Position numbers and translations under genes: made by a program. A DNA stretch of 64,000 nucleotides, taken from the NCBI GenBank assembly GCA_000442125.1, contig KE546973.1, positions 62,001 to 126,000 of the forward strand, in the 5' to 3' direction. The notes below the pieces were generated by a model that searched no databases, had not been told where the DNA came from, and saw only the letters and a program-made list of their open reading frames with translations. The DNA comes from Opeltia flavorubescens (Eukaryota > Ascomycota > Lecanoromycetes > Teloschistales > Teloschistaceae). Positions within the stretch are counted from its first letter, which is position 1. The number at the start of each line of letters is the position of its first letter. Positions 8,601 through 62,682 of the stretch are shown here, piece by piece.

Positions 8601-10871
8601 TTCTCGTGCTTTTGGAGGTGGTTGGCCCGATTGCAGAGCTGGAGTTTGCATCACTAGACGGTCTCACGGGTGGTTACGGATACAATTCGCAGATGCGCTT
8701 GCCTTCTGTTGAGGAAGTGACATCGCATCCATTCCTGGCGTCTTCTCAGATCATGAAACCGGGTCCGGATGGAGACATGCTAGCCACTATGAACTCTTTG
8801 ACCATCGGGAAGAATCCCTGGTTCTCACCCAAGAACGGTCCGATGTGGGTCGCTGGCGGGTTGACAGCAGGCCTATTCCAAATCCTTGATGTCGACGTAG
8901 TCCTTGCGGTCGACATCAGCGATGACGTCCAAATCTCTCTATTCGGAGATTGTCAAGCCGCCATCCCAGCAGCCGCAAAGAACGACTCGGAGCGTTTTGC
9001 GTTTGTGGAGCTTGGATTTATAATGACTTTGGACTACGCCAAAGGATCGTTCAACTGCCAGGGCAGACTCACACCAAAATCTTACATTCTAAGCAAGGAT
9101 TGCCATCTGAGTGGAGGCTTTGCACTTTGCTATTGGTTCGATGGTTCTGGTCACGAAGGTGATTGGGTCTTCACTGTCGGTGGGTATCATTCCCAATATA
9201 CGCCTCCTACATGGTATCCAAAGGTGCCGAGACTGGCCGTTGACTGGAAGTATGACGACAATATCTCCATACATGGAGAGGCATATTTTGCAATCACGCC
9301 CAAGGTGAGTCCACTTATTCAAAGCAGACAGTGATCAGGTTCTGCTTGTCGTTTGTGGAAGCTAGAAGCTGACAATTTATACGCTAGGTCTGCATGGGTG
9401 GTGGCAAGCTAAATCTACTATACCACTCCGGCAGCATCAACGCTCATCTGGACGCATATGCAGATTTCCTAATCAACTACAAGCCATTCACATTCACCGC
9501 AGGCATGGGCGTAGACGTAGGTGCCTCATACACGTTCAAGCATTGGGGTATTACAAAGACATTCTCAGCATCAATCGGCTGTGATTTGGAGCTACATGGT
9601 CCGCCGGTCGCCGGAACGGTCAAGATAGATTGGCATATCATTCACCATTTCTTTCGGGCCGAAAGCTCCACTTGCCCCCGCGCAAGACTGGGAAGGTTTC
9701 AAAGACCTTTTGCTGCAGAATCCAGATTCTTCTAAAAACAGACCGAGTATTGATCCACTGCATGCCCTTGCAGCAACCGCCGGTGAGTTCTCTATTTTCA
9801 AAGCGGCTGTTATTAATACACACTGGCTAATTAGTATGCAACGTAGGTGTCATACCACTAGGATCAAACGAACCCTCTCAAGATTGCTGGACCGTCGACG
9901 GCTCCGCCTTCGCATTCCGCTTCACCTCCCTCTTCCCAATCCGTGCTCTCTACGACTCAAAGAACACAGTGCAATACACCTCCGACAAAGCCGCTCCATT
10001 CATGAAGCCAATGCATATCACATCATCCACAGACGTAACATCAAACGTGACCATCTCCATAAAAGACGCGGAAAACAACGACGTGGCCGATTTCTTCACC
10101 ATCACGCCCATCATCAAGAAAGTTCCCGCTGCAATATGGGGTCCTTGTAAGCCCCCCCATCTCCGCTCTCACCCCCATTCATTCATTCCCGGCCCCAACT
10201 TCCACCCTCCCCTCCCCTCTATCACACAATCATTCTAACCCCCAAATCAAAAAACAGACGACCCAAAAACCGACCCCTCCTTCAACCCCTCCCAACCCTC
10301 CCTCCTCTCCACCTCTTCCGCCACAATCGACCAAGTAACAGGTTTCGACCTAGGCCCCAGCACCGTAACTCAATCCGCCGACATAATAGAACTGGACATC
10401 GCCCAGGACTGCTCCGAAGACGTCTTCGCCTCCACCCCTTCAAAAGCGCCCATCATACCCTCCGCTCTCTCAATCCCCTTGAGCATCCCCTCCCCCAGCG
10501 ATCCAAATGTGCAAGTCCCGTTGAATTCAAGCGAAGATACGAGGGCGACGCAATACAGCAGCTGCATCACGCAGCGGCAATCCTGGGTTCCGGATTTCGC
10601 CTCCGACACCCTGCCCCAATCCCAACAACTCTCCAACCTAAAGGGGAAGATCGCAAAAATGGACATCGGTATGCAAGACGTATTAAGAAGCTGGACATGT
10701 TTCAAAGGCCTATCGTATGTGGATACGTTAAAGGAGGGGAGCACAGCTGCTAGGTATGTGAAGATGGCGGTGGAGAATTGTGTGATGCCGTTGGATGTGG
10801 CGGTATGTGCGCCGTTTGAGGAGAATGTCTGTTTGCCGGTGCCGAGGATGGCCGTGGTGGGTGCTGCTTAG
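2663..10871 (+). CDS. Giant ComEC-type MBL-fold / DUF6603-like protein
   Basis: Twelve-exon model of about 2,460 codons: 2663-3414, 3484-3848, 3901-3972, a 30-nt exon from about 4040 (uncertain), 4136-4677, 4733-5435, 5507-6189, 6276-6848, 6941-9304, 9388-9782, 9847-10146, 10258-10871. All joins keep phase and no stop or fresh start separates the halves. Residues 1-400 are a metallo-beta-lactamase fold of ComEC/Rec2 style: LIDGGNG (52-58), SHWDMDH (90-96), FSGGDAE (313-319), KTGHHGS (338-344) and SAGDDHNHP (364-372). A Lys-rich and then an acidic linker follow (about 600-720). The rest is beta-rich with repeated modules (DLLQLAG, DLLKLGG). From about 1660 the phrase IGPLTIAAIGLKYLDKKLQL resembles DUF6603 (from memory). 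No signal peptide is visible. A reading-frame change near 9640 breaks exon 10, yet both flanking frames stay open, so it may be a sequence error. The substrate is unknown; two adjacent genes remain possible. Confidence 0.65.
9625..9665 (+). other. Apparent frameshift inside the giant gene
   Basis: Up to 9640 the frame reads VKIDWHIIHH and continues into a non-matching tail that stops at 9735. From about 9640 the +1 frame reads SFTISFGPKAPLAPAQDW and continues through a good donor at 9783 and the last two exons to 10871. The net change equals loss of 2 (or 5) bases in an ATCATT/TCATTC-like stretch. No intron fits in the available space. Single-base-scale assembly error or a recent mutation are both possible. 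Confidence 0.6.
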
Positions 10872-39414: not shown

Positions 39415-39819
39415 TACCAATCCTTCCCTTTCACGTGTCGTGGTTCAGGCGGTGACTGTTGGTCAAAAGAAGCTAATGCGCCAAGGCTCGGCTGCGTGAC
39501 GTGCTTTGGCCGCAAATCCAAATTTTCGTGATACTCCCTCGATCATGCTTGTCTCTCTTCTTTTCTCTTTGTCTTCACAATGCTGTTATCAGTCTCCAAG
39601 AGTCTGCAACTTTCTTTGTCAGATCGAATTCTTGATTCAGATCGAGTTTATACAGCAGCCATCACCTCTACCACATCCTGACAATGCATCAGTAACCCCT
39701 TGCTGTCATCCCACCTTTACCCCACACAGTGTTCACGTCTCCCACGCGACTACCGACATCGGATCGACTTCCCAATTGGAGTTGATTTCTACATTCGGTT
39801 CGAGATTTTATCGACAGCA

Positions 39820-41248
39820 ATGGTTCGAAACATCGTGGTGCTGGGCGGGAGCTCCCACCCTCAGCTGAACTCGACAATTTGCGATCACCTACAGATTCCC
39901 ATCGGCAACGTCCTACTCTCGAAGTTTTCGGTCGGCGAGACTCGGGTTGAGATTCAAGAATCCGTTCGAGGCAAAGATGTGTACATCGTGCAGTCAGGAG
40001 GTGGAAGAGTCAATGATCATCTGGTCGAACTGCTCATAGCAATCTCTGCCTGCAAGACCGCTTCTGCACGAAAAGTCACCGCCGTTCTTCCCTTGTTCCC
40101 TTACTCGAGACAAAGCGATATCCCATACAACAAAACTGGAGCACCACTATCCAAAGCTTCAAATTGCTACAACAAGCCCGATTTCCCGTACTCCTTCGAG
40201 AGCAAGCCGCAAACCCCCCACCCTGACCACCCTCATTCAGATGGCTTGCCCAACGGTGTGAATCGGCTACATAAAGGGCTGGAGAAGCTTCAGGTGGATG
40301 ATGCTATTTTTGATTCACAGAACCAACAGAATGGACGGTACTCGAACTATATCCGCGGCCCACCCAAGCGAAGCGATACCCTAGATTCTCAGATCTCCTC
40401 CAGCTCCAATCGTCAGCGAAACACGCCGGCTTCCACAGCCGTCAATGGTAACATGCAACAGCTTGAAGACGCCCAGAGCACAAGTTCTTCGAAAGATTCC
40501 CAATTCCAGCCTCGGCCAGGGTACAAGCAATGGGTCGCGCAGGCAGGTACATTGGTTGCGGACCTTTTGACCTGCGCAGGTGCAGATCATGTCATTACCA
40601 TGGATCTACACGACCCACAATATCAGGGATTCTTTGACATTCCCGTCGACAATTTGTACGGCAGACCGCTGCTGAAGAAGTACATCCGCAACGAGATACC
40701 TGATTACCAACATGCTGTCGTTGTCAGTCCAGATGCGGGGGGCGCAAAGCGAGCAACTGCCATTGCAGACGGCTTGGGTATGCCATTTGCATTAATACAC
40801 AAGGAGAGACGGCCCACCAAGATCACCGATCGACAAAATGCTTCGATGATGTTGGTTGGGGATGTATCGAACCGGACTGCCATCTTAGTGGACGATCTAG
40901 TCGATACATCGAATACCATCACCCGAGCAGCGAAGCTTCTCAAGAAAGAAGGTGCTACGAAAGTATACGCTTTGCTCACACATGGAGTGCTCAGTGGAGA
41001 TGCGATCGACCGAATCAATGCCAGTGCATTGGATAAGGTGGTCGTGACGAATAGTACACCACAAGAGGAGCACAAGAAAAGATGTCCGAAGTTGGAAGTC
41101 TTGGAAGTTGGACATATTTTTGCTGAGGTAGGTGTGCTCAGGCTCTTGAAGGGTCTACCTGGGTTCTCTGTACTGACAACGACTTTCGTAGGCAATCCGT
41201 CGAGTCCATCATGGCGAAAGCATCAGCGTGCTTTTCCAATACGACTAA
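39820..41248 (+). CDS. PRS5: Ribose-phosphate pyrophosphokinase, Prs5-type
   Basis: Two exons (39820-41127, 41192-41248) encode 454 residues. Exon 2 supplies only the last 18 residues (AIRRVHHGESISVLFQYD), the standard family end; reading through the intron would give an unrelated tail, so the splice is well supported. Motifs: NIVVLGGSSHPQL, DLHDPQYQGFFDIPVDNLYG, VVVSPDAGGAKRATAIAD, and the PRPP loop AILVDDLVDTSNT. A Ser/Gln/Asn-rich insertion of about 130 residues (104-233) follows PYSRQSD. Yeast Prs5 has an insertion at the same point, flanked similarly (GYKQWVAQAGTL here). It lacks Prs5's second insertion. The enzyme makes PRPP from ribose 5-phosphate and ATP for nucleotide, His and Trp synthesis; inserted paralogues also act in cell-wall integrity in yeast. 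Confidence 0.92.
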
Positions 41249-42542
41249 GAAAACCGAAACCCGCCATTTTAGCCATCTTGCAGTATGTGAAGGGCGGTCC
41301 CAAATGTCTTGCATTATTCATCATGACACAGTTGGGAACGGGAGTTGTAGGTGATTTGATTGGCATATCTGGGGGTCAGATTGATTTTGACATTATGCAT
41401 GCTTAAAAGTTCATCATGATTCGCTTGACCAAGTGCTGGGAAACAGCGCCGGAGAGAACAAACACAAATACCAAAAATAGAAAGTTTGCTGCAAAAAGGG
41501 TGGAGATTAGTCTAGAAAGTTGAAAGTCTTTCCATGTATTCGTTTTCGCGTATCTTGATGATCCTCCGACGTCTTTTTACATCGATCAATCAATCTTCTA
41601 ACGCAAATTGGTATCGCATGGGATTTTTCTCTAGCATCTACCATCAACGACCACGATATCTTCCACGAACTTTCTTCCAGTTTATACTTGAATGCATGAT
41701 AGCGACGCTATCCTCTGATCTTTGCTCAACGCAAAAAGTCTCCATGTAAGAATCGTAAAGATATCATTCAAAATTCAGGCAGATCCGTCTCCATTGTCAA
41801 ATCTCCAATATCTAGAGGAATTATCCTCCAAATCAAAGTCCTCGTGTGCGTTTAGCAGCTCGTAAAAATGAGAGAATGAGAGAAAGGACTCTGCTTAACA
41901 TTCATCCCTACCCAACTCATAAAAGCAAAATAGAAAATTGGTTTACCGCGAGAACACCAAACGACCCTTTCAATTCCATTCCTCCAAATCTCAATTAAAC
42001 TCTCTTTTTCCTTATATGCTGGAAAGGAGATGATTTAAAAGGTTTCTTGAACAACCATGTCTCCTCCATCAAGCCAGCAAACTACCCCTACATATATGAA
42101 CGCATCATCCTTCGAAGACGATCTCGAATACCAACCTTAAAGTCCTGTATCTCGTCTAGAAAATTAGTAAACTCCAATTCACTTAAGACGTAAAAAACTT
42201 AGGCAGCGAAAAGGAGAGAAAAGGAAGTAAGCTCGTAAGAAGGAATCTGAATAACATCCTTCCTTCACAATGTTCCTCGAAGTCTCAAAGTGAGAGGTGA
42301 TGTAAAAAGTCGTAATTTGCTGATCTTCCGCCATTTTGCCTTATATCCCGTGACGCCGTTGAAAATCAAATGAAACCATAACACAAAATCTGCAATCCTA
42401 TCAAAGGAGAACCCCCATAAAAACCTCATCCGCGTAAAAAAGAGAGAAATCATCGCCCATTATCACGTCCGACTCATGCCCCATCCCCTACCACCCATGG
42501 CATCATCTAGATAAGCAATAACATGGCAGGAGATGGGATCGA
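41249..42542. other. Intergenic region
   Basis: About 1.3 kb between the 3' ends of the PRPP synthetase and the first Zn2Cys6 regulator. AT-rich; no coding sequence or repeat supported. Confidence 0.45.
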
Positions 42543-47704: not shown

Positions 47705-49685
47705 CTAATTAACATGCACCCTCCACAACTCCCTATGCCCGCTCTCAAACGCCGTCCTCGTATGATGCGTAGTAGCATTATCATTAAAGATAAAATCCCC
47801 CTCAACCCACTGATGCCTCAACGTAACCCTCCGATCATACATCAACCCCGTCAACTTCTCACAAAGCTCCTCCCCCTCCTTCACCGGCATGCCCGGAACC
47901 TCCACAATAGTAGGCTCGCTCGTAGCCCCAATACATTTCTCCGCCGGCCACGGCTCATGAAAACGGAAAGTATCCTTCCCCGTCTCCGGATGCGGAGAAA
48001 TAAACGGCAAGACCAACTCCGCGCCTCCAAATTGCGGATTCGCAGCCGTAAAAGTCTTCCATTTAAGCTTCTTCAGCTCAGGAAGAGGAATGGTATCCGG
48101 CCCAAGTAGCGGTAACATATTCCTCGAAGATGAAAAAAGCGTCAACCCCCCCACCTGCTGCGCCGCCGCCCGATTCCTAAACATCTGAAAAAGCGGCGGC
48201 ACAGAAATCGCCTCCCCCGTCTTCTCATCCTTCACAGTCTTAAAAACGCCATCGTAGTGGAAAGGCATAGCCTCATTCGTGAGCACATTATTCATATTCA
48301 TGCCCGGGTTTTCGCGGATCTCGATGATATCGCCGAAAGGCCACATCTGGATTTCGCCCAGCTCATTGGCTTTGGCGCGGAAGACTTCCTTTTGGACTTC
48401 CATCGTGAAGCCCCTGAGGAGAAGCGGGGCGGTGGAGAGAGCGAGCTGTCGCACATGCTTCATATCCACGTCCTCGAACTTGTAGGGTTTGATGCCGGGC
48501 TGGGGTTTGACGATCATGCCGCACGGGTAGAGGGGTTCGAAATCCAATTTCATGCTACCCCAGTTGAAGAGGTCTGAACGTTCGCGCAGGAGCCAAGGGC
48601 GGCCGGAGGCGGAGGTCTGGATGTAGAATTTGGATTTGTCGATTTTGGAAGCGTCGACGATGAGGACTGTGGCGTCGGCCATGACGGCGACGGCGCCATG
48701 CCAAGGGGTGATGAAGGAGGGGTTTGTACCGGGGGTGAAGAGGTCGATGGTGATTTTGCCGACGTTGTTGGATTCGTGGATGGAGAGGCGGATGTAGGAG
48801 GATGAGGTTGATTCGATAAGCTTTGCGAAGGCCTGAACACGAAGGAGTTAGCGAGGATGTCAGAACTTAGTTCAAAGGTTGGGTCATACCTTTCCTCGCT
48901 TCAGCATCTCAGCCTTGAAAGCTGCCGGGTCTTGCTTAGTTGGGAGAGCATTGTCGTAATGCTTGCTCGTTGCCTTGATGTTCTCGTCCTTGCTCGGATC
49001 GACATCTTCGGCATACGTGGTATCGAGTTCACGGCGTGTCTTTCGGACCTGAGCAGAAAACTGCTCAAGGGTTTGCGCGTCTTGGGCGACGGCGCCGGAG
49101 AGTGGACCTGCGCGTACAAACTTAAGATGCTTGAGACCAAGGGAGGAGGCAAGTTCCCGTAATTCGGTCTGGTAGGCATATGCATCGGCGTCGGGGACTT
49201 GGAGAAGATCTATTTGGAGGTATAGAGTTAACAAAAGTTGTTTCTTCGAACGACTATAATTATGTCTCACCTCCATAGACGGAAGCATCTGATACAATTA
49301 TGACATTGGAGCCAGGTGCGTAGATTTCCGCAATCGAATCAGCCAAGCCATCGAGCGTGTGCAAAGCAATCTCTTCAGTCTTGTCTGGCAGCTGGCCTAG
49401 TGTCTTGCCCTTCTTCCCTTGTTCGACGGGTGCTTTGAATGGGAAGCCAGGTAGAATGAATTCAACAGGCTCCCCCTTGGCGACAATCTTGTCCAATTGC
49501 TTCTCAAGCTCAGGAATGAATTTGGAGAAGCGGTCTGGAACATTCTGTGACCGATGACGATATGCGGCGATAATGGAGAGGATCTTGGAGACTTGAGGGT
49601 CGGCAGCGGAGATTGAGGGGATGGAGGACATTTTGCCCCTGAAGAGAGCGGTGAAAGGGTTAGGGAGAATGAAATCGAAACTCAT
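47705..49685 (-). CDS. Isocyanide synthase-TauD dioxygenase fusion
   Basis: Three exons on the minus strand (49685-49271, 49209-48890, 48832-47705) encode 620 residues. Residues about 20-250 are a DIT1/PvcA isocyanide synthase domain (EFILPGFPFKAP at 75-86, LGQLPDKTEEIALHTLDGL at 96-114, IYAPGSNVIIVSDASVYGD). Such enzymes convert the amino group of an amino acid, classically Tyr or Trp, to an isonitrile using ribulose 5-phosphate. Residues about 300-620 are a TauD-type Fe(II)/2-oxoglutarate dioxygenase: AMPFHYDGVF gives His437-x-Asp439, and NDNATTHHTRTAF gives the distal His601/602 with Arg604 for 2-oxoglutarate. Bacterial PvcA and PvcB are separate proteins; this one-chain layout is known in fungi (the ICS-dioxygenase class). 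All joins are in phase. The ATG at 49685 is used; M19 is an alternative. A TATA element lies 125 bp upstream. Confidence 0.9.
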
Positions 49686-49807
49686 GATGGGCTAAAGATG
49701 ATAGAGAACTCGTATACAAAATTGAGATAGGATGAAAAATATGGTCAAATAGTAAATAAGATAATGACCTTTACATTAACGAGAGAAAATAACTTGTCGC
49801 AGAAGAG

Positions 49808-49815
49808 CTTATATC
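49808..49815 (-). promoter_or_regulatory. TATA box of isocyanide synthase gene
   Basis: On the minus strand GATATAAG lies about 125 bp upstream of the ATG at 49685, a spacing shared with the halogenase-like and MFS genes of the cluster. Confidence 0.5.
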
Positions 49816-50080
49816 GATTCACAATTTTTGATGTGCTTACAACATACTTGGTGAGTGAGGTAAGATTCACCTCTTAGTAGACGTACTATCAAGGATATTC
49901 GATCTACGGGGCCAAGTTCGTAAGCCAAAAACTGTGCTGTGCCATGCGACAGCTACGACCTCGGTCTTTAGTCGAAAGCCATGTGTGGCGACGGGTGACA
50001 GCTACTTCATGTGGACTGTCAATCATGTCCATCATGTAACAGAAAGCTAAGAAGCTGGAAGCAGTGAAACAGCATGCAGA

Positions 50081-50168
50081 CGGATTCCGACGGAGCTGAC
50101 TACTCGTGGGATTTCAGGAATGAAACCTTACGTGATCAATTGGTCCGTGGCTTCCGACGGCGTTACCG
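50081..50168. promoter_or_regulatory. Paired CGG inverted repeats upstream of isocyanide synthase
   Basis: CGG-N3-CCG at 50081-50089 and CGG-N5-CCG at 50158-50168, and the 9-mer TTCCGACGG repeated at 50085-50093 and 50152-50160, about 400-480 bp upstream of the synthase ATG. Zn2Cys6 dimers typically bind CGG half-sites in this kind of arrangement, and two such regulators flank the cluster. The link is inference. Confidence 0.4.
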
Positions 50169-51788
50169 CGGAATAAGCGAAATGCTTGGTTTGGCTTGCC
50201 GTTATTCATGTTCATGCATCAAGTGAAACCCTTTCTTCGATTCTATGAAGTCTTTGTAACGACGATGCTTCATCGACTTGCATGCGAAATAGAAAAAGAA
50301 TTGGTGGGTTAGATCGGAGACAACTCCTAATCTGCGGTCTAGCTCCAAAAGGGCATCTCAACCCGGACAAGCCTTATTTGTGTAACAGTAACATGCAGAT
50401 GCAGCACGCGGCCACCACATGGTTATACATACATATACTTTGGGTCTTGCGCATGCGTAGTCAAGCCATATCTTTCAATTTCAGGTGCCTGGAGAACAAA
50501 GGTCTAGGCGCGAAAGTGTAGCTGCAAGGACAGCTGTCGAGGTATTCCTCACCTGCGAAAGTAGAGGCCCATTCTGCAAGTCGTAGAGCAGTTCCGTCAA
50601 TTCCTGCTTCTGTACGTTTCCTTTGATACATCCGCGCAATGATACGTATCTCATACTCCTTCGTTCTGCCTTAAAAATCTGATATCCAGCTTCGAGAGAC
50701 TATGGAGACAAGGTCTTTATTCTATCTTCCGTCCAATCCGCAAAATGACCCACAAATAATGATCTAGGGTCCAAGCTGACTGGCAGCCAGAAAATAAAAC
50801 GATGATGTAAGTTAATTTATACAGTAAGTCCTCGGTCCAGTAAGTCCAGTCACAGAACCGGAGCTTTCGGCACCTCAAAAACAGCGAGCTGAACCATATA
50901 TATAAATATAATAATCATATCTCCTCCTTTCAACATTCATAGGGTTCATCTTCTCGATGAAGCCGCTCTATCGAATGTGGGAGAAAGATATCTTGCCAGC
51001 AAGTCCAGTTTTGTGTAGCTCCCCTGGATCTCCCTTGCTGCAAACGCACACGAAGAGTGATTAAAAGAGAAAAGTAAGGTAATTACATGTTGCCCAGTCA
51101 CTCATGATAGATCCCCGAGGCGAAAGAGAAACGTCACAGTGCTTAGTAAAACAGGAAGAAATCTTTGATAAACTTTTTGATACGGAAATGGAAAAATTAA
51201 TATCAATGTATTTGTGTTGTGATTTTCAGATGTATGTGTGTACATATGTGTGCGTGTGTATTTGTCCATCCACTATTGGCCCTGCATGCCTGAAGAAAAG
51301 TGTTGGTGAAGGATCGTAGAGATACACATGTATACATAGAAGTGACAGAGGGGAAGAGAAGAGACGTAGAATGAAAAGATAGATCACCAGACATAGAGTG
51401 CGTAGGATGTATGGCTAAACGGAAAATTTACATGTATGCTTGAAACTTATATAATTCATCTTTATAATGTGATGTATCTTATTAAGGTACGTCTTATTAA
51501 GAGGTGTCTATAGACGGGGTGATAATGGTTTTGGACTGATGCAAAAACCTCCACATATCGATCTAGCGCAGATAGATTTACACTAACCTGTCAATTTTGA
51601 TTCTATACCAAAGGAAGGAAATGAAGAAAACACTAAAATGAAGAGACTTGGAAAGCAGAATTATACAAGAAGTAGTGTTGAAGTCTGATTGCTGTATAAA
51701 GATCTAATTTTCGTACTCACAAGCCATAAATACATCCAAACATCCATAAGCTATGCATCAACAACAACCCAGCCCCCAATCAGCAATT

Positions 51789-53852
51789 CTATACACAAAC
51801 CTCCTTCGACAAAGTCGGGAAAGTCGCCGGCATATCACTCTGCTCATGGAACGGCGTCGAACTAACCCCCGGTTTCGCATCAGAAGCAGCAACGAGATAC
51901 TTGACCTCCTCAGCCGCAAGCGGTGGGTTCCAAACAATACTCGCCTCCTCCTCCGTCCTCATCTTACCGCAAGAATAGCACTTCTTCCAATCCGGCCTCA
52001 AGGCCAACCAAGAGGAACAATGCGTGCACTGGCGCACGAATTTATCCTTCGTAGTCTTATTCTCGTCGTAGTTGAGGTAGAGGTCGTAGTACCTCAGAAG
52101 ACCGTCCCAGCGGAAGTTAAATTTGTTGCTATCGACGGCTTGCTTCTTCATATTGTTGCTGAAATCGATGATTTCGGTGACGATGGCATCAGGGACGGGT
52201 TCTTCGAGTGGGATGGGAGCGATGAGTTCGATGGCCTTCTTGGCGACGGCGTCGTACTCTGGGACCCAGGTACCCCAGGCCCAGTTGATGGAGTAGCGGA
52301 CGTAGTTGTCGATAGTGAGGTTGTAGTCCTGTCGAATGAGTTGCCAGCCGGGTGTGCCGACACCGATGAGAGCTTGCCAGATGAGGGAGACTTGTGGGCC
52401 GAGACGGGGTTCGCGGAAGCAGCAGTAGTTGAACTTGTTCATTTGGTTCAGGGCGGGATACATGTCCTTTGCGAATTTGTCGTAGGGGGCGAAGGTCTTA
52501 CGGATGGCGAGTTCAGCGGCCTCGTTGTCCTTGGCAGCCTTTGCTTCTCCGAGGGCTTTGTGAGCGAGCTCTGCGGAGTAGACGGATGTGGCCATGGCGG
52601 CAGTGATACCTGGGGATAGGTAGGGGTTGGTGAAGCCACAGGCATCACCGATGGCGACCCAACCGGCGCCAGAGACAACAGGAGACTGGTAGGTGAGTGA
52701 CTTGCGGACGATCCAGGTGGTGTTCGGGCCATAGAGATCCTCAATGAGCTCGAAGCTCTTCATAAATTCCTTGATGAGATCATACTTCTCAACGAAGTAG
52801 TAGAATTTGCGCTCGGCTTCCTTGGTGCCATATTTCGACATATCTTCGGGGTATTTGACATCATTGCGTGTGGCCATGCCGATACTGGTGACCCACTGGA
52901 ATTTGAGGCCGAACATCTCAGCAAGCTCCTCAGAGCTTGGGATCTCGTCATTGGGTGTTCTGGCTTCGGCACAGTCAAGGAGGTAGGTGAGCATGTCCAT
53001 CAGGTTGGGGATTGGGCTGCCTTCCCATGAAGGAACGCGGATAACCCACGCCCAACCCTCGGGGAAACACAAATGGTTGGTGTTGGGGCCTTCCCAGAAT
53101 CGGAAGGGGATCTTGCTCTCGTCCTTGGGGCAAGTGAAGTAAGCCCAGAAAGCATCGTAGTTCCATCCCTCGAAGCGGTGGATGGGAGCATTCTTGGAAG
53201 CGACTTGTCGGAAACGGCCAGTCGCATCAACCAAGAGGGAAGAGTTGACGGTAGTGGCAGGNTGGGAGTCATATTTGCCCTTGGTGATTTCGATCTTGTT
53301 GGTCTCCAAGCCAGGAGCCACCTTGCTACCTTGGAAGTCGACTTGCTTTCCGTGATAGACATTGACACCCAGACGCTGGGCGAAGAGGGTAAGGAGAAGT
53401 TCGCTCATTGGTCGCTCCATCTGGAAGCCGGCCAAGAAAAGACCTGGAGGGCCGTTGGTGGCCCAATCTGTGTAGTGACCCTGGTTCTCACGGTCGAGGA
53501 AGTCGAAGGCCAAACCATCCTTGATACCGAATATTCGGAGAAGGTATTCACCGGTGAGACCCAGCATCTTGCACCATAATGAGAAGAGGGGAAGCGTGCT
53601 CTCGCCGATCTTATACCCTGGCTTGGCGTTCTTTTCGATGAGAGTCGTCTTCAGCTGACCAGGCTTGTGCTTCTCTGACTGAATGGCGTGGATGAGACCG
53701 TGGATACCACCACCAGCAACGAGAACGTCTGAATCGGTGGGAACATCTGGGCCACCTTTGTTGTTGGAGTTGAGGATCTGGGCATCGTTAAGATTCCCAG
53801 CCTTGGCACGCTCGGTGAAGGTGAACTTCGGGGTGGGAGCTTCAGTTGCCAT
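51789..53852 (-). CDS. Flavin-dependent halogenase-like enzyme with C-terminal CxxC pairs
   Basis: Single-exon minus-strand gene of 687 residues from the ATG at 53852 (an earlier in-frame start at 53906 is non-ATG). Motifs of the flavin-dependent halogenase/monooxygenase superfamily: dinucleotide-binding VLVAGGGIHGL (GGGIHG at 47-52), IGESTLP (82-88), GWAWVIRVPSW in the place of the halogenase WxWxIP motif, VAIGDACGFTNPYLSPGI. Lys111 (GIKDGLAFDF) sits where the catalytic Lys of halogenases is expected. The enzyme would use FADH2 and O2 to oxidise halide, or act as a hydroxylase. Unusually, residues 609-628 form C-x2-C-x12-C-x2-C (CTHC...CYSC), a zinc-ribbon-like module. One codon contains an N (53262), giving an unknown residue. 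It lies between the isocyanide synthase and the hydratase-like gene, all on one strand. Confidence 0.8.
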   Translation of the reverse strand: MATEAPTPKFTFTERAKAGNLNDAQILNSNNKGGPDVPTDSDVLVAGGGIHGLIHAIQSEKHKPGQLKTTLIEKNAKPGYKIGESTLPLFSLWCKMLGLTGEYLLRIFGIKDGLAFDFLDRENQGHYTDWATNGPPGLFLAGFQMERPMSELLLTLFAQRLGVNVYHGKQVDFQGSKVAPGLETNKIEITKGKYDSXPATTVNSSLLVDATGRFRQVASKNAPIHRFEGWNYDAFWAYFTCPKDESKIPFRFWEGPNTNHLCFPEGWAWVIRVPSWEGSPIPNLMDMLTYLLDCAEARTPNDEIPSSEELAEMFGLKFQWVTSIGMATRNDVKYPEDMSKYGTKEAERKFYYFVEKYDLIKEFMKSFELIEDLYGPNTTWIVRKSLTYQSPVVSGAGWVAIGDACGFTNPYLSPGITAAMATSVYSAELAHKALGEAKAAKDNEAAELAIRKTFAPYDKFAKDMYPALNQMNKFNYCCFREPRLGPQVSLIWQALIGVGTPGWQLIRQDYNLTIDNYVRYSINWAWGTWVPEYDAVAKKAIELIAPIPLEEPVPDAIVTEIIDFSNNMKKQAVDSNKFNFRWDGLLRYYDLYLNYDENKTTKDKFVRQCTHCSSWLALRPDWKKCYSCGKMRTEEEASIVWNPPLAAEEVKYLVAASDAKPGVSSTPFHEQSDMPATFPTLSKEVCV

Positions 53853-56210
53853 GATGGATACAATAGGAAAGTAGAATGGGAAAGTAGAATTGGGAGATAG
53901 AGACAAGGCGATTGTCTTGTGCTGTCGAAATAAAGAGCTGGAGTAAGGAAGCGACGAGATTCTTATATATTACCATTTACAGCACGAGACCCAGAGAGGT
54001 TACACGACCGGTAAGCCATTGACATGACGGTCTTCACTGTTTGCCTAAGATAATCTTGCCACATTGCCGAAGATGAAAATGTTGCTTACCGCATATACGC
54101 GGACCTTGCAGGTAGACGATCCGCGGGCTCGGTATAGTATCAACGAGTAGTTTCCGTCAATCGAGGCTTAAGATCTCACTCAGCACTTACTCTCACTATC
54201 TCAGCCCGTCTCGCAACATGCAACCCTGTTGATCTGCGTCTGAGGTTCGACGCAGGACCCGAATATGGTTCTACATGCTTCCAGAACAATTGCGCGATCT
54301 GATACACTCCGTACCTGCAGGTGGCCTAACACCTCGTTGACCAACATGTAACCCAAAATGGATCTTGTAGCAAAGAAGACAGTATGCATGAGATTAGCGT
54401 GTCGGCAATGTAAGTAGTGGTGACGCTGGTGCAACGGTAACGCTCAATTGGCTCTCCCCTCCGTCGTACTAGCGATCAACGGTAGTTCCTGCCTCTACAA
54501 CGGGACAGGTATAGGCCCCCACTCCTTGCGCCGCACCAGCCAGTGCCACCAACCTGAATAACGTTGCTGACTCCTCAAGACTCTGCAGAGAGGACTTCAA
54601 ACTACGGCGTAATGTGTGCCCGCACTTGAACCGATCCGACTCTGCTCCATGGCTGACTTCATGCATCGGCCACGAGATTGCCGCATATTCTCAACCCGTC
54701 CTGGAACGTGGACATACGGCCCCATTTGGCCTAAGCACTAAATCTCTATCTATCTAGTAAGCATGGGATGTACAGTAGAGTTTACTCATCCTCTAGATTC
54801 GTCCATTCTGGAGCCTCTCTCCCCATCCATTATTTCGAAGAGTTATCGGGTTGACCGACGTCGAGGCACGTTCAAACAACAAAGACTGCTATCGCTGGCT
54901 CTTATTAATCGTACAGCACGAATAAATCCGATAATTTGGATGCAATTGGCAGCCAATTGAGGATCAACATCGTGGAGCGATCCGTTGCGAAAGTCCGATG
55001 ATTGCGGAGTTTCAATTTGGTCGCAGGTTCAAATCATCGCTCATTTGCGACAAGTCCTGCAACTGGTAAATTGTGTCAACAAAGATGCATCAAGGAGGAG
55101 GGGATCACCCCATTTTCTGAGCACCAGAAGATCTTTCAATGAGGACGAGGGCTGACGTTTCAATCTCACAACCAAGGTATGAGCTCTGTTGTATGGTCGG
55201 CATGATCGTAGACGAGGCTCCTTTGATTGAGAATCGTCATTCGAGACGAGTCGCCCTGTTTGCGCAATAGCAATGCCATCGGATGTCAATCCCTACCTCT
55301 TAACGTCCCTCTTCACCAATCCGTTCCATAAACTTGAACCTCCAGTTTCATCCAACAAACAAACAACCCACCACCACCACACCCTCATCACCAAATCCTC
55401 TCAGCAGCCCCCAAAAATAAACCCGCGCACATGGAAAAATGCATAGTCAGAGTCGTACAGACAAACTGTCGTCCCGCCAAGCTTTAGGGTGCTTACACAC
55501 ACAGAGCTCCACTGTAATCCTTCTCGAAACCCTGAATTACTACCAAATGGGGACCTCTTACCGGCGTCAACCAGCAGCATGTCAGAACCCTAAAGCTAAA
55601 GGGCTTCCCTGAAAAAGGTTGTTGTCGCGGCGCGTATTATCCTTGTTGGGGAAATGCAATGGTGGGGAGACCGGAAGGATGCGGATGTATGTGCGTGAGC
55701 AGCTTTGTGGGTGAACCCTGTGGGATTTTCTATGGTGGATTCGAGAATGATTTGGAAACACCTCCGAGCAGTGCTGTTTCATCCTGCTATCGTCACAGGA
55801 AACCACAGTCGCTACGTCAAGGTAGGTCACGCAAAGTTCCCCTTTTCCGGGGATGAATCTGGAGTAGTTTTCGTTTCTGTTGGATGCGTCACAGATCTGT
55901 CTCGGTACATTATGACTTAGTGATGTACGGATGATTGGTGTTTGCTTTTGTATAAAGTATGGTAGATTGGTCGTTTGCATTAAATGGGATGGCTAAACTC
56001 CCTTCTCCTGGGAATCGAAGGGAGTTGAGGAGTTGACGGTTGCAAAAGGATCATGAGATGGTAAGCAATCATTGACGAAGAGTAGATGAGAAGATATTTT
56101 GTAGATCTAGTACTTGTGCATTCAGTTCTAATCGTTTATTTCTATTCAAGTCGTTGCCTCGTTTTAAAATCATACATCGTCCAAACAACCACCTAGACTG
56201 GCTAATTACC
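53853..56210. other. Cluster intergenic region
   Basis: About 2.3 kb between the halogenase-like promoter and the 3' end of the DJ-1/PfpI gene. Short ORFs only; I see no P450, methyltransferase or reductase fragment, no tRNA and no repeat. Confidence 0.45.
53962..53969 (-). promoter_or_regulatory. TATA box of halogenase-like gene
   Basis: Minus-strand TATATAAG about 110 bp upstream of the ATG at 53852. Confidence 0.55.
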
Positions 56211-57181
56211 CTACCCAATCTTCATATGCTCTATCTCTTTCCTCGTAAGCCTCACAAACGGGTCATCGCTCGGATCATCATGCCAGCGATACTCCAATTC
56301 ATAAGCAATTGAATGAGCGTAGTCTAGCGCTTTCTGGGCATCGAAGCCAGGGAGTTGTATTGCGTCGCCGTCCCTTCGAGCTTTGATAATTTCACCATCT
56401 GAGAGGTGAGCGTTGCGATTTTGGGGAGGAATGTAGGTTCTGGAAAGGAAGAAGAAGCCGGCATCCATGCCAGCGGTGACACCGGATGAGGACAGAAATT
56501 TCCCGTCTTGGACCCAGCGGGCGCGTTTTTGCCATTCTACGTTTGGATCTATGGGAGGGGGGTGGATTAGTAAGGAAAGGTGTTTGATGAGGGTGGAGCG
56601 GAAAGAGTGGGTGATCTAGATGGATCGGGAGGGAAAGGGAATAGTGGAGGCTGGAGATAGGGATTTGATCTGCTTTGTACCATCGATAGAGGGAAGGAGT
56701 TGAACAAAGGGGAACGAGTATACCTACATTTCCTCGTATGCTCCTCATAAGACCGCTTATTCGTCGTTGCCTTCCTCCCGTCAAGCCTCCCCGTGGCTGC
56801 GAGCACCACACCCCCGGTGCATACCGTAAATACATTTAGGGCTAGGTCGGCCAACAGCCCGATTTGCTTTAGTAGGACCGGATCCCAGGTCAAAGGCAGC
56901 ATGCCGGGGCCGCCGGGGATGAAGAGCGTATCGAAATGCTTATTTTGGTATCCGGCCGTGACGTACGTTTTTAGGGCATCGGCTAGGGAGATATTCGGGA
57001 CGATGCCGATGCCGTTTTTGATGGTTGACTCGAGGCCATGAGGCGCAGGCAGGTTGTGCACGTTTACGAGGGACAGGGTGTAGAAGTCGCTGCGAGGGAC
57101 AATGGAACCGAGGGGGCCGAAAAGGTCAAGAGCTTCAAAATCATTGAAGATGAGGGCGAGGATGTGGTGGTTGTTGGGCAT
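56211..57181 (-). CDS. DJ-1/PfpI protein, isonitrile hydratase-like
   Basis: Two exons on the minus strand (57181-56728, 56548-56211) encode 263 residues; the 179-nt intron joins RK/YPNVEWQKRARW in phase. The fold is DJ-1/PfpI. The motif LDLFGP carries Asp19, and the nucleophile elbow VCTGG carries Cys121-Thr122, followed by LAATGRLDGRKATT. SSSGVTAGMD comes near residue 175. Asp, Cys and Thr at these positions are the catalytic set described for bacterial isonitrile hydratase, which adds water to an isonitrile to give an N-formamide. The Aspergillus xanthocillin cluster is reported to include an isocyanide hydratase of this kind. Together with the isocyanide synthase 6.5 kb away, tailoring or self-protection is the natural reading (inference). 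Other DJ-1 relatives (glyoxalase III, AraC-like cofactors) cannot be excluded on sequence alone. Confidence 0.85.
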
Positions 57182-58051
57182 ATTGTTGCCTCTTTGGGAT
57201 TCAAGTGTTTGCCTATTCTTTCTGTTGATCCTCAGTAACCTGCTGTCAGCCTTTATTCTCCGATGTCATTGATTTGCTAGGGTGAATAGTTGGTTTGAGC
57301 TGCAAGGCTGGTCTTGAGCCGAAACTCTGTTTTCAACCGTGTTTCTATCGAATAGTTATCCTTGGCCGCCCCCCCAGTTGCTGTTCGTGCCGCAAAGGAA
57401 TCAAGGGATGTGACGCCGATGACGGACGGTGGACGAAAGTCCGTGGAAATTCCAGCATTAGGAGTGGGGCCCGCGGACCGTGCCGACTGTCCGTCTTACA
57501 GGTTGGTATTAGCGACTTTCCGTGGGCTCTGTGGCTGAAGTTAGGGGATCCTTTGGTGCGCAGTAGGCTTGGGCTATTCCAAAAGCCTCTGCGGAGGCCA
57601 GTGCATGCCTGATGTCGATGATAGAGAGCGCATCTTGGTAATGACTTGGCAAAATTCGACGCTGCTGAAATATTTCGTGATCAGACTGGAGGATATGATT
57701 TACATGGCTGAGTACAAAGGTCATGATGGCAGTCCGTAGCGAGTAGGATCAATGATGATGTAATCATAATCCTTCGAAGTCTAAACTCTATGAGCACGAC
57801 ATGCCACATCAAAATTCTGTACGGTACAAAGTATTATGTGGGTGCTGCTTATGGAACATTAGATATTTTTGTTCTTTCGTTGCAATTCTTAGTCGAAGCG
57901 CAGTTCACATTCTGGGAGAGAAAAAGTACTTTTGCCTAGCCTTGCTAAAGCTGTATTAATTACATAAGTCTATTAACAGGTCTATTGGTCGTGATGATGC
58001 AAACAGAATGCCAATGCTTTCAACTAGCAAGCTACCAGAACTTGTCTCAGG
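57182..58051. other. Cluster intergenic region
   Basis: About 870 bp between the DJ-1/PfpI start and the 3' end of the MFS gene. A GC-rich block (57405-57500) contains several CGG and CCG triplets, including CGGACCG at 57474-57480. No gene supported. Confidence 0.4.
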
Positions 58052-59629
58052 TCATGACTTTTGGTCTTGTTCGGCCGCCGCTTTACGGTCAGCTTCAGCA
58101 GCCCCAGCCGTACCACTGAGACGGTCATCGCGGATAAAGAGAGCAACTGTGAGAAAGGCAATCAACGCAAACCCCATGCCGAGCCAATATGCCCCTCGGT
58201 ACCCCAGAATTATGTCGGTACCATGCTTATTGACATGTCCCTCAACTGTCGCAGCAAATCCGAGACCCTGGGCGACTGAGAATAGCACCACAGTCGAGAT
58301 AAATGATCCAGCAACGCCTTGCTCTTCCGGCAAGACCGCGTTGGAGACAATGATGTTGGAGGATGCGAAAGAAAGATCCGGCCCTCCGACGACGAGGAGG
58401 CAGGCAGGACCAACGAAAGCCCAGTAGGAGGTTGAGTGTTTGGCGAAGCTCATCAGGAGGCAGCCGAGGAAGAACGAGAACATCGAAACACCGAAGATGA
58501 AATGCGCTGGCACTTTCATGATGAATATGCCAACCGACGCCGTCGCGAAAGCACCACCTATGACTAGGGGTGTCATCTCTGCCACGTTCTCAAGGGGACC
58601 TTTGTGGCGGACCATGAAAATCCAGACGGTGGTGTAATAGAGGAAGATTCCGAAAGACATCCAGCCAAAGCACATTGCGATCATGATGGGGGTGAAGCCT
58701 TTGCGTTTCCAGAGGTGATTTGGCAGAACGGGCGCTTTGACGTATGCCTGAGTGAAGACAAAAGCAACGAGGAGAAGGATGCCGACTATCATGAGGATGT
58801 AGACGTAAGGCTTTTCCCAACCAACCACGGGCGCTTGATTCCATGCGAATGAGAATAGGGTGAGGCCGCTGATACCAGTGATGGTACCAAGGTAGTCGAA
58901 ATCTCGCATCTTCAGCCCTGGTAGAGGAGAACCAACACTGTGGGGAACAACGAGGAAAGAATAAAGGCCCAGGACGAGGCAGCCGATGGCCCAGAACCAG
59001 AAACCCCATCGCCAAGTGGACTTCTGCGCGAATGCAGCACCAATGAGCCCGCCAAAGATGTATCCGGCCGGGGAGCAGAAACCGAGGAAAGCGAAGGATA
59101 TATTTTTCTTCACTGAGAATGGCTCGAAAGATCGTCCCAAAAGTGCGAACGCGTTGGGAACCAGGGCACCACTGCCGACACCCATCATCGCGCGGCACCA
59201 GTCGAAGAATATTATATCATCGGCGAATCCGGCAGCCAGAGACCAGACAGCCATCCAAGCCCATCCGCCCATGAAAACATATTTGTGGCCGAGGTGATCT
59301 CCCAATCGTCCCGTCACCAAGACGAAGACACCACCGCAAAGTGCATATGCTGATAGAAACCAGGATAATTGGCCATTGCTTGTTTCGTTCATTGTTTTTC
59401 CGATTTGAAAGATGTTGAAAGCGGACAAGCCTAGACCTCCAACAGAGAAGAGCTGTGATATGCCCACAAGGGCGATGAAAAGAGCTTCTTGGAATGTTGA
59501 GGAGAAATGATTGTAATGTGGAGGCGCTGCAGGCTCGCCCATGCCGCCAGGTCCCATGGCATCGACGTTGGTCATCTCATATTCGTCTTTGCTGAACCGT
59601 CTGTCGTCGGGGCTCGTAGTAGAAGACAT
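58052..59629 (-). CDS. MFS drug:H+ antiporter-type exporter
   Basis: Single-exon minus-strand gene of 525 residues from the ATG at 59629; 39 nt of upstream open frame begin at a TTG. After an acidic cytosolic tail there are 12-14 hydrophobic helices. GRLGDHLGHKYVFMGG in the loop after the second helix is MFS motif A. RAMMGVGSGALVPNAFALLGRSF corresponds to the motif B region, and GFCSPAGYIFGGLIGA to the antiporter motif C region. This is the pattern of DHA1/DHA2 multidrug exporters. In this context the likely job is export of the cluster product (inference). It is divergent from the Zn2Cys6 regulator, sharing a 540-bp promoter. The C-terminus is hydrophilic (Ala/Glu/Asp-rich). Confidence 0.88.
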   Translation of the reverse strand: MSSTTSPDDRRFSKDEYEMTNVDAMGPGGMGEPAAPPHYNHFSSTFQEALFIALVGISQLFSVGGLGLSAFNIFQIGKTMNETSNGQLSWFLSAYALCGGVFVLVTGRLGDHLGHKYVFMGGWAWMAVWSLAAGFADDIIFFDWCRAMMGVGSGALVPNAFALLGRSFEPFSVKKNISFAFLGFCSPAGYIFGGLIGAAFAQKSTWRWGFWFWAIGCLVLGLYSFLVVPHSVGSPLPGLKMRDFDYLGTITGISGLTLFSFAWNQAPVVGWEKPYVYILMIVGILLLVAFVFTQAYVKAPVLPNHLWKRKGFTPIMIAMCFGWMSFGIFLYYTTVWIFMVRHKGPLENVAEMTPLVIGGAFATASVGIFIMKVPAHFIFGVSMFSFFLGCLLMSFAKHSTSYWAFVGPACLLVVGGPDLSFASSNIIVSNAVLPEEQGVAGSFISTVVLFSVAQGLGFAATVEGHVNKHGTDIILGYRGAYWLGMGFALIAFLTVALFIRDDRLSGTAGAAEADRKAAAEQDQKS

Positions 59630-60169
59630 GGCGACGTTTCTTTGCAGGGTGAATAGGAGCAAAGTCAACGCTGAGGAAGGATGTGGAGATAGAGTGGATC
59701 AGAGTCGTCTTCGATGGATGTAAGACTGTAAGGATTTTGCTGGGCACCAGGGTTTATATGATCCTGTGCCGTCACGCCGTCTGCCAAAGTAAGCGCCGCC
59801 CCTTGATGTCAAGATCTTCATTTTGGCAACCTGTCGGATTTTATACAGCGGAAAATGGTGAAGCTCCGCGGGAGTGCCAAGACTCCGATGTATCAAAGCA
59901 ACCGCAAACAACGCCGCTGACACAGAAAGAATAGAGTTTGCACTTAGCCAAATGCGGAAAGCGCAATGCTCGGTCACCATCTGACATGAGATTCTAATTT
60001 CTCCATGCCATACTTAGTTCGGTTACACAATCTTAGGTGATCCTTTCAACGTCATCCGCAGCGTCGATTGCTCTATCAATGCTGACCCCGGTCGGAGCAG
60101 CCTTATTGTCGACTGGCGGCTGTCAAACATGAAAAAGCAATACTCCGAGCGACGTTGCTGATCATTAAA
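59630..60169. promoter_or_regulatory. Bidirectional promoter of MFS and Zn2Cys6 genes
   Basis: 540 bp between the two divergent start codons. It holds the MFS TATA element and scattered CGG/CCG triplets, for example CCGGTCGG near 60088. Divergent regulator-transporter pairs are common in fungal metabolite clusters, so joint or autoregulatory control is plausible. Confidence 0.5.
59753..59759 (-). promoter_or_regulatory. TATA box of MFS gene
   Basis: Minus-strand ATATAAA about 125 bp upstream of the ATG at 59629. Confidence 0.5.
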
Positions 60170-62682
60170 ATGCATACCAATGTTCCGAAAGCACCTACAG
60201 ATACCAGCGCCAATAAAAATCCATCAGCCCAGTCAGGACCTGCACGGCATGACCAGCCTCCGAAGAAGGGTAAAGACAAGAAAATCTGGAGCTGCCATTC
60301 ATGTCGACGACGAAAGCTCAAATGTGACCGATCTGATCCCTGTGGAGCCTGCCAGGCGCGCGGTGAAGGTAATTCGTGCACCTGGGAAGAAGGTCAAAGA
60401 CCTGAGTATGCATGGTCAGCACCTTGAATACACGCGTCGCTAACCCTGGCTTGTTTTCCGATAGGAAAAATAACCGAGAAAGTTTGGAACAACTTCCGAG
60501 CTTGATTCAGAAGCTCACGCAAGAGGTGAAGGAGCTCAAGGCATCTAACGCAGAGTTAGTACAAAACTTCCTACACAAAGGGGGAACCACTTCTTTGGAA
60601 GATCGATCGACGACTCTCCGCAAAACGCAAGATGTCAGTCCTGTGGTCGGTAGGTCTGGGACGAGCTCCCTCAATCCTGTTTCATCTCCATCTCGGTTGC
60701 CACGAGCCCCATTCCTGACCATGTGCTCTGCTCTACCTCAAGGGTCAGACCTCTCCCATCAAAATCCTGACCGACAGCGCTGGACGCATTCGCGGATAGC
60801 GGCTTTGCTCCCGGAAAGTAATCTGTTATGGGGACTACTATGTCATTTTGTAAGTATTCTTCTTTCGTCGACCATAGGAAAATAATGGTACGGTTTACCT
60901 CGAGACGCTCTTACACTGCGTCAGTTTCACGTTTCCGCATCGTTGACTGGATTTATTGACGTTTCGCAATTACTCTCTGAGCTTGAGGAAGTGGAGCATG
61001 TCCGTAGAGGGATGGAAAATCGCAGCTCAACTATATCTGTTGAATATCTTGACGTGAAGGTGTCCCTCATTCTTGCCTGCGCAAGTCTTGCTGCAACGAA
61101 CCTCGACACGGCTAAAGCGGAGGAGCTTGGTATTGGTCGTCTGAATATTGACGCATTTGCGAGGGAGCTGTGGAAAAAGGCAAGAATGCTGATTACGCCC
61201 CTAGAGTTAGACTCTTTTCCCAGTGGTTCTGAGGCAGTGCCAAAAGCACACTCTTCTCTGGCTGACTCGCAAATGAATGCACATCAGCCAGGGCTCACTT
61301 CATCTTGCCCTCCAGCTACGCTCCTGAAAATCGTGGCCATAAAGATCATACTACTTCTCGCCGCTCGATCTTTTGCCGGACCATCAGAATATCTCAAGCT
61401 CCATCTCGACGCTATTTCTTCTGCCGTGGAAGCTTCATTGGATTCTCCCTGCGATGACGAAGTCTCACTCGAAGAACGTGAATGGCGATGGCAGCTCTGG
61501 TCTTCCCTTTGTGTTCTTGATTGGACTTCTCCAGGTATATACCACAACGGTAGCTACTTTATTCGGCCGGAAATGCACAGCGATCCTCCATCGAAGATTC
61601 CCGGGATTCCTGATGACGGAACATACTCGCCAATGATGGAAATGGAGCACTTGGAAAGGCTCGGCCAGACCAGATATTTTTTGGAATACGCCTTAGCACT
61701 TGCCAGTCTCTCTTGCAGGGCAGAGGATTGCATCGTCCACCCAGGACCTGTTCTACCTGGTCAGGCTGCGGCACTATGCTCCGAGCTGGATGATTTAGAC
61801 CACAAACTGAGTTTTTATCATCTGTTAGGCAGCGCCGGAGGAGGACGAGGAGGAGACATGGGGTTCTCGAAAAGCAGCATCAACGGCAGCGCTGGTGGTG
61901 GAGGAAGGCAACTCGGAAACAATAGCGGCCATAGTGCAAACGACCATCGACTTTCCAACCAAACAGCCTTGCAAGTGCAATTCGTACATTTGACTCTGAT
62001 GTTAGGACTCACCCGCTTCAAGCTCTGTCGCCACGAGGCTTTCCACCTTATGCAAGACGCCACGAGTTCTTTGTCCCTACGAACGATGTGCATGGATACC
62101 TGCATGGATGCTTGCATCCTTGTCCTCTCTCACAGTAGGAACATCGGTATTCGCACACCGCAAATGATCATCATGGGAGCAGAAGGAATGCGCAGTATTA
62201 TCTCCGACAATGGGGAGAAACATCCCTACCCTGGCATTTTCCGGCGCGTCATCCAGCCCGCTTCATCCGCAGCTTTAGTAGGACAAGTTCTGCTTCACGC
62301 TTCGCGATCTTCCGAAGGAAAGGGTATGATGATGGTGCAAGACAAGAACCCCGGGACAGTCGCAAACAACAGCAATAACCAGAATCCCACCTCACAGTCA
62401 ACGTCCACGAATGGCAATATGGCAAATAAGGAGTATTACAAATCATATGCAGAACCGTACGTCATGAAAGGATTCGGGCCACAGAGCCCTTGGAATACGA
62501 GTGCGAATGGGACGCCTGATACTGGCGCTGCTGCTGCTGCTTCCACTGCTGGGATATTTGGGAAGGAGAAAATGGGGCTATTGCAGTGGCATATCAATGC
62601 AGTTGTTGGGGAGCTGGAGGCTCTACAAACGACATCACCGTTGGCGAAGCATAAGTTGGTATTGCATCGGCAGTGTATGTAA
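60170..62682 (+). CDS. Zn2Cys6 transcription factor, probable cluster regulator
   Basis: Three exons (60170-60405, 60465-60849, 60925-62682) encode about 793 residues. The zinc cluster has Cys 42, 45, 52, 58, 61 and 70 (SCHSCRRRKLKCDRSDPC, GACQARGEGNSC), spaced C-x2-C-x6-C-x5-C-x2-C-x8-C, after a Lys-rich stretch. Exon 2 starts with a Leu-rich coiled-coil (EQLPSLIQKLTQEVKELKAS) suitable for dimerisation. The long third exon is the fungal_trans-like middle region (SLILACASLAATNL, EWRWQLWSSLCVLDW, HNGSYFIRPEMHSDPP). Exon 2 to 3 splicing to the acceptor at 60924 restores the frame; the earlier acceptor at 60879 runs into a stop. The 3' end is ambiguous: a strong GTATGTAAG donor at 62675 could join a terminal exon (62722-62822) instead of using the stop at 62682. 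It likely controls the neighbouring isocyanide genes (inference). Confidence 0.85.

Follow-up and report, generated by a model that had tools for sequence, protein, structure and literature searches.

The 64,000-nucleotide stretch of the Opeltia flavorubescens genome analysed here (the window; positions 62,001-126,000 of contig KE546973.1, or G000:C9:62001-126000 in our numbering of this 34.4-Mb fungal genome) carries five neighbouring genes at positions 47,705-62,682, which encode an isocyanide synthase (ICS) fused to a TauD domain, a flavin-dependent halogenase, a DJ-1/PfpI protein, a major facilitator superfamily (MFS) transporter and a Zn2Cys6 regulator. All five genes named in the initial annotation were recovered by gene models and Pfam matches, and the four structural genes share, as it had stated, one strand (minus), with the regulator divergent on the plus strand. 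From the sequence, we judge it rather probable that they form a cluster for a ring-halogenated aromatic vinyl isocyanide in this Teloschistales lichen fungus. The locus is best described as an isocyanide cluster that is conserved in part and has an additional halogenase, which is probably functional: the ICS–TauD, DJ-1, MFS and regulator genes are its ordinary parts, and what is unusual is the halogenase, of the MalA type but with a loop of its own. Metal binding is a property of isocyanides, many of which are bioactive, and halogens alter reactivity and potency; enzymes combining the two would give access to such compounds and to catalysts for halogenation.

In the pathway that we infer, from the amino acid used through the order of the steps to the product, the ICS domain would act on an aromatic amino acid, more likely tyrosine than tryptophan, and convert its amino group to an isocyanide. 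Loss of the carboxylate and desaturation of the side chain, both by the fused TauD domain, would yield a vinyl isocyanide. The MalA-type halogenase would chlorinate or brominate the electron-rich ring using FADH2 from a reductase encoded elsewhere, and the MFS protein would export the product. The DJ-1 protein would hydrate stray isocyanide to the formamide as self-protection, and the Zn2Cys6 protein would switch the cluster genes on, possibly via CCGCGG.

The ICS–TauD fusion (47705..49685, minus strand; introns 49270-49210 and 48889-48833) has 620 residues and belongs to the icsB-type clade. Across its three exons, Pfam matches to TauD (4.6e-32) and DIT1_PvcA (5.9e-16, 3.1e-8 and 5.4e-22) were found, placing PF05141 and PF02668 in one protein, which is the definition of a fungal ICS–dioxygenase (ICS-DOX). 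Among solved structures it matches PvcA (3e59, 8e-22), PIsnB (7tcl, 2.5e-21) and PvcB (3eat, 1.7e-18). His437, Asp439 and His602, which we take to be the metal-binding triad of the iron/2-oxoglutarate-dependent (Fe/2OG) domain, are all present and are conserved in 50, 50 and 51 of 52 aligned sequences, respectively. Lys or Arg at PIsnB position 107 together with Asn or His at position 188 marks the PIsnB type, which forms vinyl isonitriles, as opposed to the PvcB type, which forms isocyanoacrylates (PMC9467999; this and the other papers given here by PMC number are cited from the parts of their texts available to us). Both positions match the PIsnB type in the window protein (Lys443 and His537), as they commonly do among the 52 aligned synthases (Lys in 46 and Arg in two; His in 48), and we predict from them that the TauD domain is of the vinyl-isocyanide-forming type. 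Its clade mates are A. fischeri, A. clavatus (both Aspergillus) and Penicillium proteins at 63-73% identity, with two shorter P. nalgiovense entries at 51-53%. The same genome holds four further ICS loci: another ICS–TauD gene (C2:1.004M), two loci on C16 (679k and 284k), one of them near an NRPS-like gene (nonribosomal peptide synthetase-like) with AMP-binding C-terminal, carrier and transferase domains, and one near a zinc-cluster gene (C3:2.028M). An ICS–TauD entry assigned to the fern Adiantum nelumboides hardly differs, over the part shared, from a protein of another contig (P0136 and P0149), and probably represents fungal contamination.

The halogenase gene (51789..53852, minus strand) is intronless and encodes 687 residues; an ambiguous base at 53262 leaves one residue unknown (X) and the frame open. 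What had been called a 'halogenase-like' enzyme can be described more closely as a MalA-type zinc-binding flavin-dependent halogenase, based on structure matches and aligned residues. In addition to a Trp_halogenase match in Pfam (5.1e-12), residues 5-662 align to MalA structures (5wgv, 5wgr and others) with an E value of about 1e-287, and the protein is 60% identical to the Malbranchea MalA record used (P0046), which has Asp at 494. Homologues were taken from the best 120 of 159 matches; proteins shorter than 560 residues were left out, and the remainder together with the window protein gave an alignment of 112 proteins. In this alignment, Lys111 corresponds to the catalytic Lys108 of MalA, and the zinc ligands Cys609, Cys612, Cys625 and Cys628 as well as Phe407, Pro410 and Ser413 are retained; together with GxGxxG, the protein has the catalytic lysine, FxxPxxSxG and four zinc cysteines that define the MalA type. 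The closest species-labelled halogenases among the matches listed come from Teloschistales lichens: Gyalolechia sp. 2 and G. ehrenbergii, each at 95% identity, and, at 93%, 'Letrouitia leprolyta', whose sample was placed inside Gyalolechia (PMC9907504).

Linkage of these genes in other species was read from two indirect signs: the numbers of locus tags, and entries that list longest contigs of identical size. The matches are clusters at 90% identity, in which individual members are hidden. Seven lichens have at least two of the genes for ICS, halogenase and DJ-1 within six locus tags, and six of these lichens also share a contig size. All three are linked in Blastenia crenularia (ICS Q9170_003126, DJ-1 _003129, halogenase _003132; tags and a 50.7-kb contig), and all three also occur on one 78.5-kb contig. 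DJ-1 and halogenase are paired in Gyalolechia ehrenbergii (LQ343_005452 and _005455), Gyalolechia sp. 2 (Q9216_005233 and _005236) and Xanthoria sp. 1 (L6R42_000378 and _000381); ICS and DJ-1 are paired in Loekoesia (Q9225_003612 and _003615) and cf. Caloplaca sp. 3 (Q9219_006393 and _006397); and in 'Letrouitia leprolyta' the ICS (L6R41_006245) and halogenase (L6R41_006246) are adjacent by tag alone. Six halogenase–ICS matches in contig size were found (20.8, 28.3, 42.8, 50.7 [Blastenia] and 78.5 kb, and 9.86 Mb in Parajaminaea, a length that implies the same chromosome only), along with six halogenase–DJ-1 matches, one of them with an Alectoria fallacina DJ-1, and eleven ICS–DJ-1 matches, four of which are on Mb-sized Aspergillus or Penicillium contigs. 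When the sizes were shifted by 1-200 as a control for chance, 0.05-0.07 matches were obtained on average and two at most. By these signs, the halogenase and ICS are linked in one other lichen, probably in a second, and on four further contigs. The coherent gene set proposed in the initial annotation, with the synteny check suggested there, has thereby been borne out in part, for three of the five genes: of ICS, halogenase and DJ-1, two or all three are linked in each of the seven lichens. In seven pairs, ICS and halogenase distances vary together (r 0.93, exact p 0.0006), a correlation that rests on the extreme pairs; leaving out Parajaminaea gives r 0.83 (6/720 permutations as high).

The best-surviving alternative, which we nevertheless regard as unlikely, is that the halogenase is a neighbour serving another pathway, such as that to the chlorinated polyketides of Teloschistales, and that the cluster consists of ICS–TauD, DJ-1, MFS and regulator. 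This would agree with A. clavatus, where the ICS–TauD and DJ-1 entries are on the same 1.04-Mb contig and no A. clavatus protein appears among the 120 listed halogenase matches, and with the finding that MFS proteins, zinc-finger factors and hydratases are common partners of ICS (PMC10153163). However, halogenase and ICS entries share the contig sizes 20.8, 28.3, 42.8, 50.7 and 78.5 kb. Three further Trp_halogenase-family loci in the same genome would be free for other work: C5:1003812, C22:254973, which lies near an O-methyltransferase, and C11:1236295, whose protein is 37% identical to the window halogenase. Moreover, no polyketide synthase (PKS) or NRPS domain was found among the window open reading frames (ORFs) scanned with Pfam.

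Several observations weigh against a halogenated-isocyanide cluster. The ICS and halogenase entries of 'L. leprolyta' list longest contigs of different size (19,989 and 60,882), so that a single contig is not shown for this pair, and the closest DJ-1 of this lichen (L6R41_004711) is placed on a third, of 30,227; ICS and halogenase are also on different contigs in Calcarisporiella. No partner is listed for the halogenases of Usnochroma, Wetmoreana and Bogoriella, nor for a second halogenase of Blastenia. Conservation is lower for DJ-1 (68% identity to G. ehrenbergii) than for the halogenase (95%), and for the five mid-distance pairs, from which 'L. leprolyta' is also omitted, the ICS–halogenase correlation falls to r 0.19 (38/120 permutations as high). 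The best 120 of 159 halogenase matches include no entry labelled Aspergillus, a genus in which ICS and DJ-1 are present, so that a halogenase is probably dispensable for the core. Lastly, Glu494 and His253 of MalA are not retained at the aligned positions of the window halogenase, and its substrate therefore cannot be read off MalA.

The region of Glu494, a residue that binds or deprotonates the MalA substrate (PMC9144378; PMC8407142), is replaced by GVGTPGWQLIRQDYNL, a longer loop. The residue aligned to Glu494 is Gly in the structure match or Ile506 in the 112-protein alignment, neither of them acidic, and the loop length differs; an Asp three residues downstream of Ile506 could, as a shifted acidic residue, still take the part of Glu494. 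The loop motif GWQLIR occurs in 32 of the 112 halogenases and in 10 of the 11 for which linkage was seen, the window counted, the exception being Parajaminaea with GYQWIR; otherwise, no halogenase without the loop motif was seen linked among P0001-P0070, where linkage was examined, and a twelfth linked halogenase (P0064) is below the size needed for alignment. The loop difference from a structurally solved halogenase makes the choice of substrate directly testable.

The altered loop and the non-acidic position aligned to Glu494 could instead indicate that the flavoprotein, although part of the pathway, is an oxygenase or oxidase acting on the isocyanide product. The WxWxIP motif, which is thought to prevent monooxygenation (PMC8407142), also reads WAWVIR (WAWVIRVP) in the window protein. 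Yet MalA itself reads WVWVIR (WVWVIRLP) and halogenates, and the conserved lysine, FxxPxxSxG and zinc cysteines are all retained, so that we consider this improbable. Halogenation of the substrate by the MalA-type enzyme is our preferred assignment.

In the basidiomycete Parajaminaea phylloscopi, an ICS–TauD protein (53% identity) and a halogenase (51%) are both entered on a 9.86-Mb contig (P0061 and P0156), a pair that suggests wide or horizontal spread. MalA falls inside the group holding most of the linked halogenases when a FastTree tree is rooted at its midpoint, although many of the inner nodes are weak. We offer only as a tentative idea, with the balance against it, that ICS and a MalA-type halogenase might be an old, mobile fungal module for halogenated aromatic vinyl isocyanides across lichens, perhaps also in Parajaminaea and Calcarisporiella, from which the MalA-type halogenases of indole alkaloid pathways could have been recruited with a change from the GWQLIR loop to the Glu494 loop.

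The DJ-1/PfpI gene (56211..57181, minus strand; 179-bp intron 56727-56549) encodes 263 residues with a DJ-1_PfpI match of 2.9e-10, and its structural relatives include 3mgk (5e-25) and the isonitrile hydratase InhA (6e-12), of which we take Cys101 and Asp17 to be catalytic. Its reading as isonitrile-hydratase-like gains from two residues: Cys121 lines up with the cysteine of InhA, and Asp19 with an Asp of 3mgk (the InhA alignment does not extend to Asp19); among the 120 homologues listed, Cys121 is present in all 120 and Asp19 in 116. A second gene of this kind was not found in the same genome at an E value of 1e-3. The gap between the halogenase and DJ-1 genes in the window (about 2.3-2.36 kb, 53969-56211) holds no convincing ORF, although in three relatives two locus tags are numbered between them. 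That DJ-1 instead turns the isocyanide into an N-formyl compound, with a halogenated vinyl formamide or a dityrosine-like wall precursor as the end product, is improbable too: the retained hydratase-like residues and the N-formyl derivatives presumed to arise from A. fumigatus XanA (PMC5974471) would fit, but hydratases have been hypothesized to serve self-protection (PMC10153163) and no P450 domain was found among the window ORFs scanned with Pfam.

The MFS transporter gene (58052..59629, minus strand; MFS_1 1.3e-31) encodes a probable exporter of 525 residues. The divergent Zn2Cys6 transcription factor gene (60170..62682, plus strand) encodes about 792 residues with likely introns at 60406-60464 and 60850-60924, the Zn_clus match (6.4e-6) being obtained on an 803-residue splice variant; spliced models with introns were required for ICS, DJ-1 and the regulator. 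Across 3,800 fungal ICS clusters, MFS proteins are partners in about 60%, zinc-finger factors in 21.3% and hydratases in 21.1% (PMC10153163). The initial annotation had considered the combination of genes novel; this applies to the unusual halogenase, and not to the MFS protein, zinc-finger regulator and hydratase, which are common ICS partners in fungi.

The palindrome CCGCGG, a candidate regulator site, occurs exactly once in each of the four promoters: at 50166..50171, 481 bp upstream of the ICS start; at 54121..54126, 269 bp upstream of the halogenase start; at 57471..57476, 290 bp upstream of the DJ-1 start; and at 59866..59871 in the divergent promoter, 237 bp from the MFS start and 299 bp from the regulator start. 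There is no other copy from 40,359 to 64,000, and the genome has 3,676 copies in 34.4 Mb. The chance of finding it within about 500 bp in all four is about 8e-6 at the genome rate or 3e-5 at the window rate; as the motif was chosen after testing 63 dyads, of which CCG-CGG without a spacer was the only one present in all four promoters, and the 500-bp limit was fixed after the sites were seen, this is a lead and not proof. The four promoters share two 7-mers against 0.9 expected (at most three in 60 shuffles) and no 8- or 9-mers. TATA-like hexamers begin 129 bp before the ICS start codon, 117 bp before that of the halogenase and 130 bp before that of MFS (with another at 216 for MFS), and none was matched upstream of DJ-1 or the regulator; the initial annotation had given 110-125 bp for three of the genes. 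Copper control was considered and set aside: the copper-factor consensus, TGTGCTCA or TTTGCTCA, is in none of the four promoters, in which the shorter TTTGCTC occurs once, in the MFS/regulator promoter, and CGGGG is not enriched.

The G+C content of the window is 48.9%, compared with 48.6% in eleven other stretches of the same genome chosen around genes. The cluster is flanked on the left by a ribose-phosphate pyrophosphokinase gene (39,682-41,406), with no Pfam match in any of the four ORFs that were scanned from 42.5 to 47.2 kb, and on the right, beyond the window end, by genes for a family-2 glycosyltransferase and a PARP/ubiquitin-conjugating protein.

No ICS–halogenase cluster of this kind was found in the literature, which was covered mostly by titles and abstracts and mostly outside subscription journals and thus gives weak evidence, and the word halogenase is absent from the main text of the survey of 3,800 fungal ICS clusters (PMC10153163). 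In a survey of lichens, isocyanide synthase clusters are included in the category 'other' (PMC12711211), and no described lichen isocyanide compound was found at the level of titles and abstracts. In bacteria, two of the best 80 of 127 loci with ICS-like genes gave a match to a profile of fungal halogenases, a profile that could overlook distant bacterial enzymes. One of these is a possible bacterial parallel: in Wenjunlia vitaminophila (L048:76-1959, 8001-8906), about 6 kb separate a Trp_halogenase-family gene from an ICS-like match that is followed by a TauD domain. The other, a Taibaiella protein (L027), is better matched by general FAD-binding families.

Among known systems, the icsB-type clusters of Aspergillus (ICS4G of A. 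fumigatus, with IcsA AFUA_4G01370 and IcsB AFUA_4G01420) likewise have an ICS–TauD fusion; the A. fischeri and A. clavatus proteins are 72-73% identical to that of the window and in the same clade, the A. clavatus DJ-1 entry is on a contig of the same size as its ICS, and we infer that A. fumigatus IcsB is the orthologue. There are two differences: the 120 listed halogenase matches name no Aspergillus, and A. fumigatus has icsA plus icsB, neither expressed under the conditions tested (PMC5974471), whereas the window cluster has one ICS gene. The xanthocillin (xan) cluster of A. fumigatus shares an ICS–dioxygenase (XanB) and an isocyanide hydratase homologue (XanA), but has no predicted transporter according to the available text (PMC5974471), the main text of which lacks the word halogen, whereas the window cluster has both an MFS gene and a halogenase. 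With MalA, the malbrancheamide halogenase, the window enzyme has in common 60% identity, the catalytic Lys108, four zinc cysteines and FxxPxxSxG; it differs in that Glu494 and His253 are not retained at the aligned positions and in its longer loop (a further MalA substrate contact is Phe496 in the part of a review available to us, and residue 496 is Tyr in the record used). The two domains of the ICS–TauD protein align with PvcA and with the Fe/2OG enzymes PIsnB and PvcB, and the protein is of the PIsnB type at both diagnostic sites, with the difference that in the window cluster the two domains are fused in one protein. Chlorinated isocyanides are known in fungi from Trichoderma, and the hapalindole-type pathways of cyanobacteria make halogenated isocyanides in which the halogen is set by an Fe/2OG halogenase, not by a flavin enzyme.

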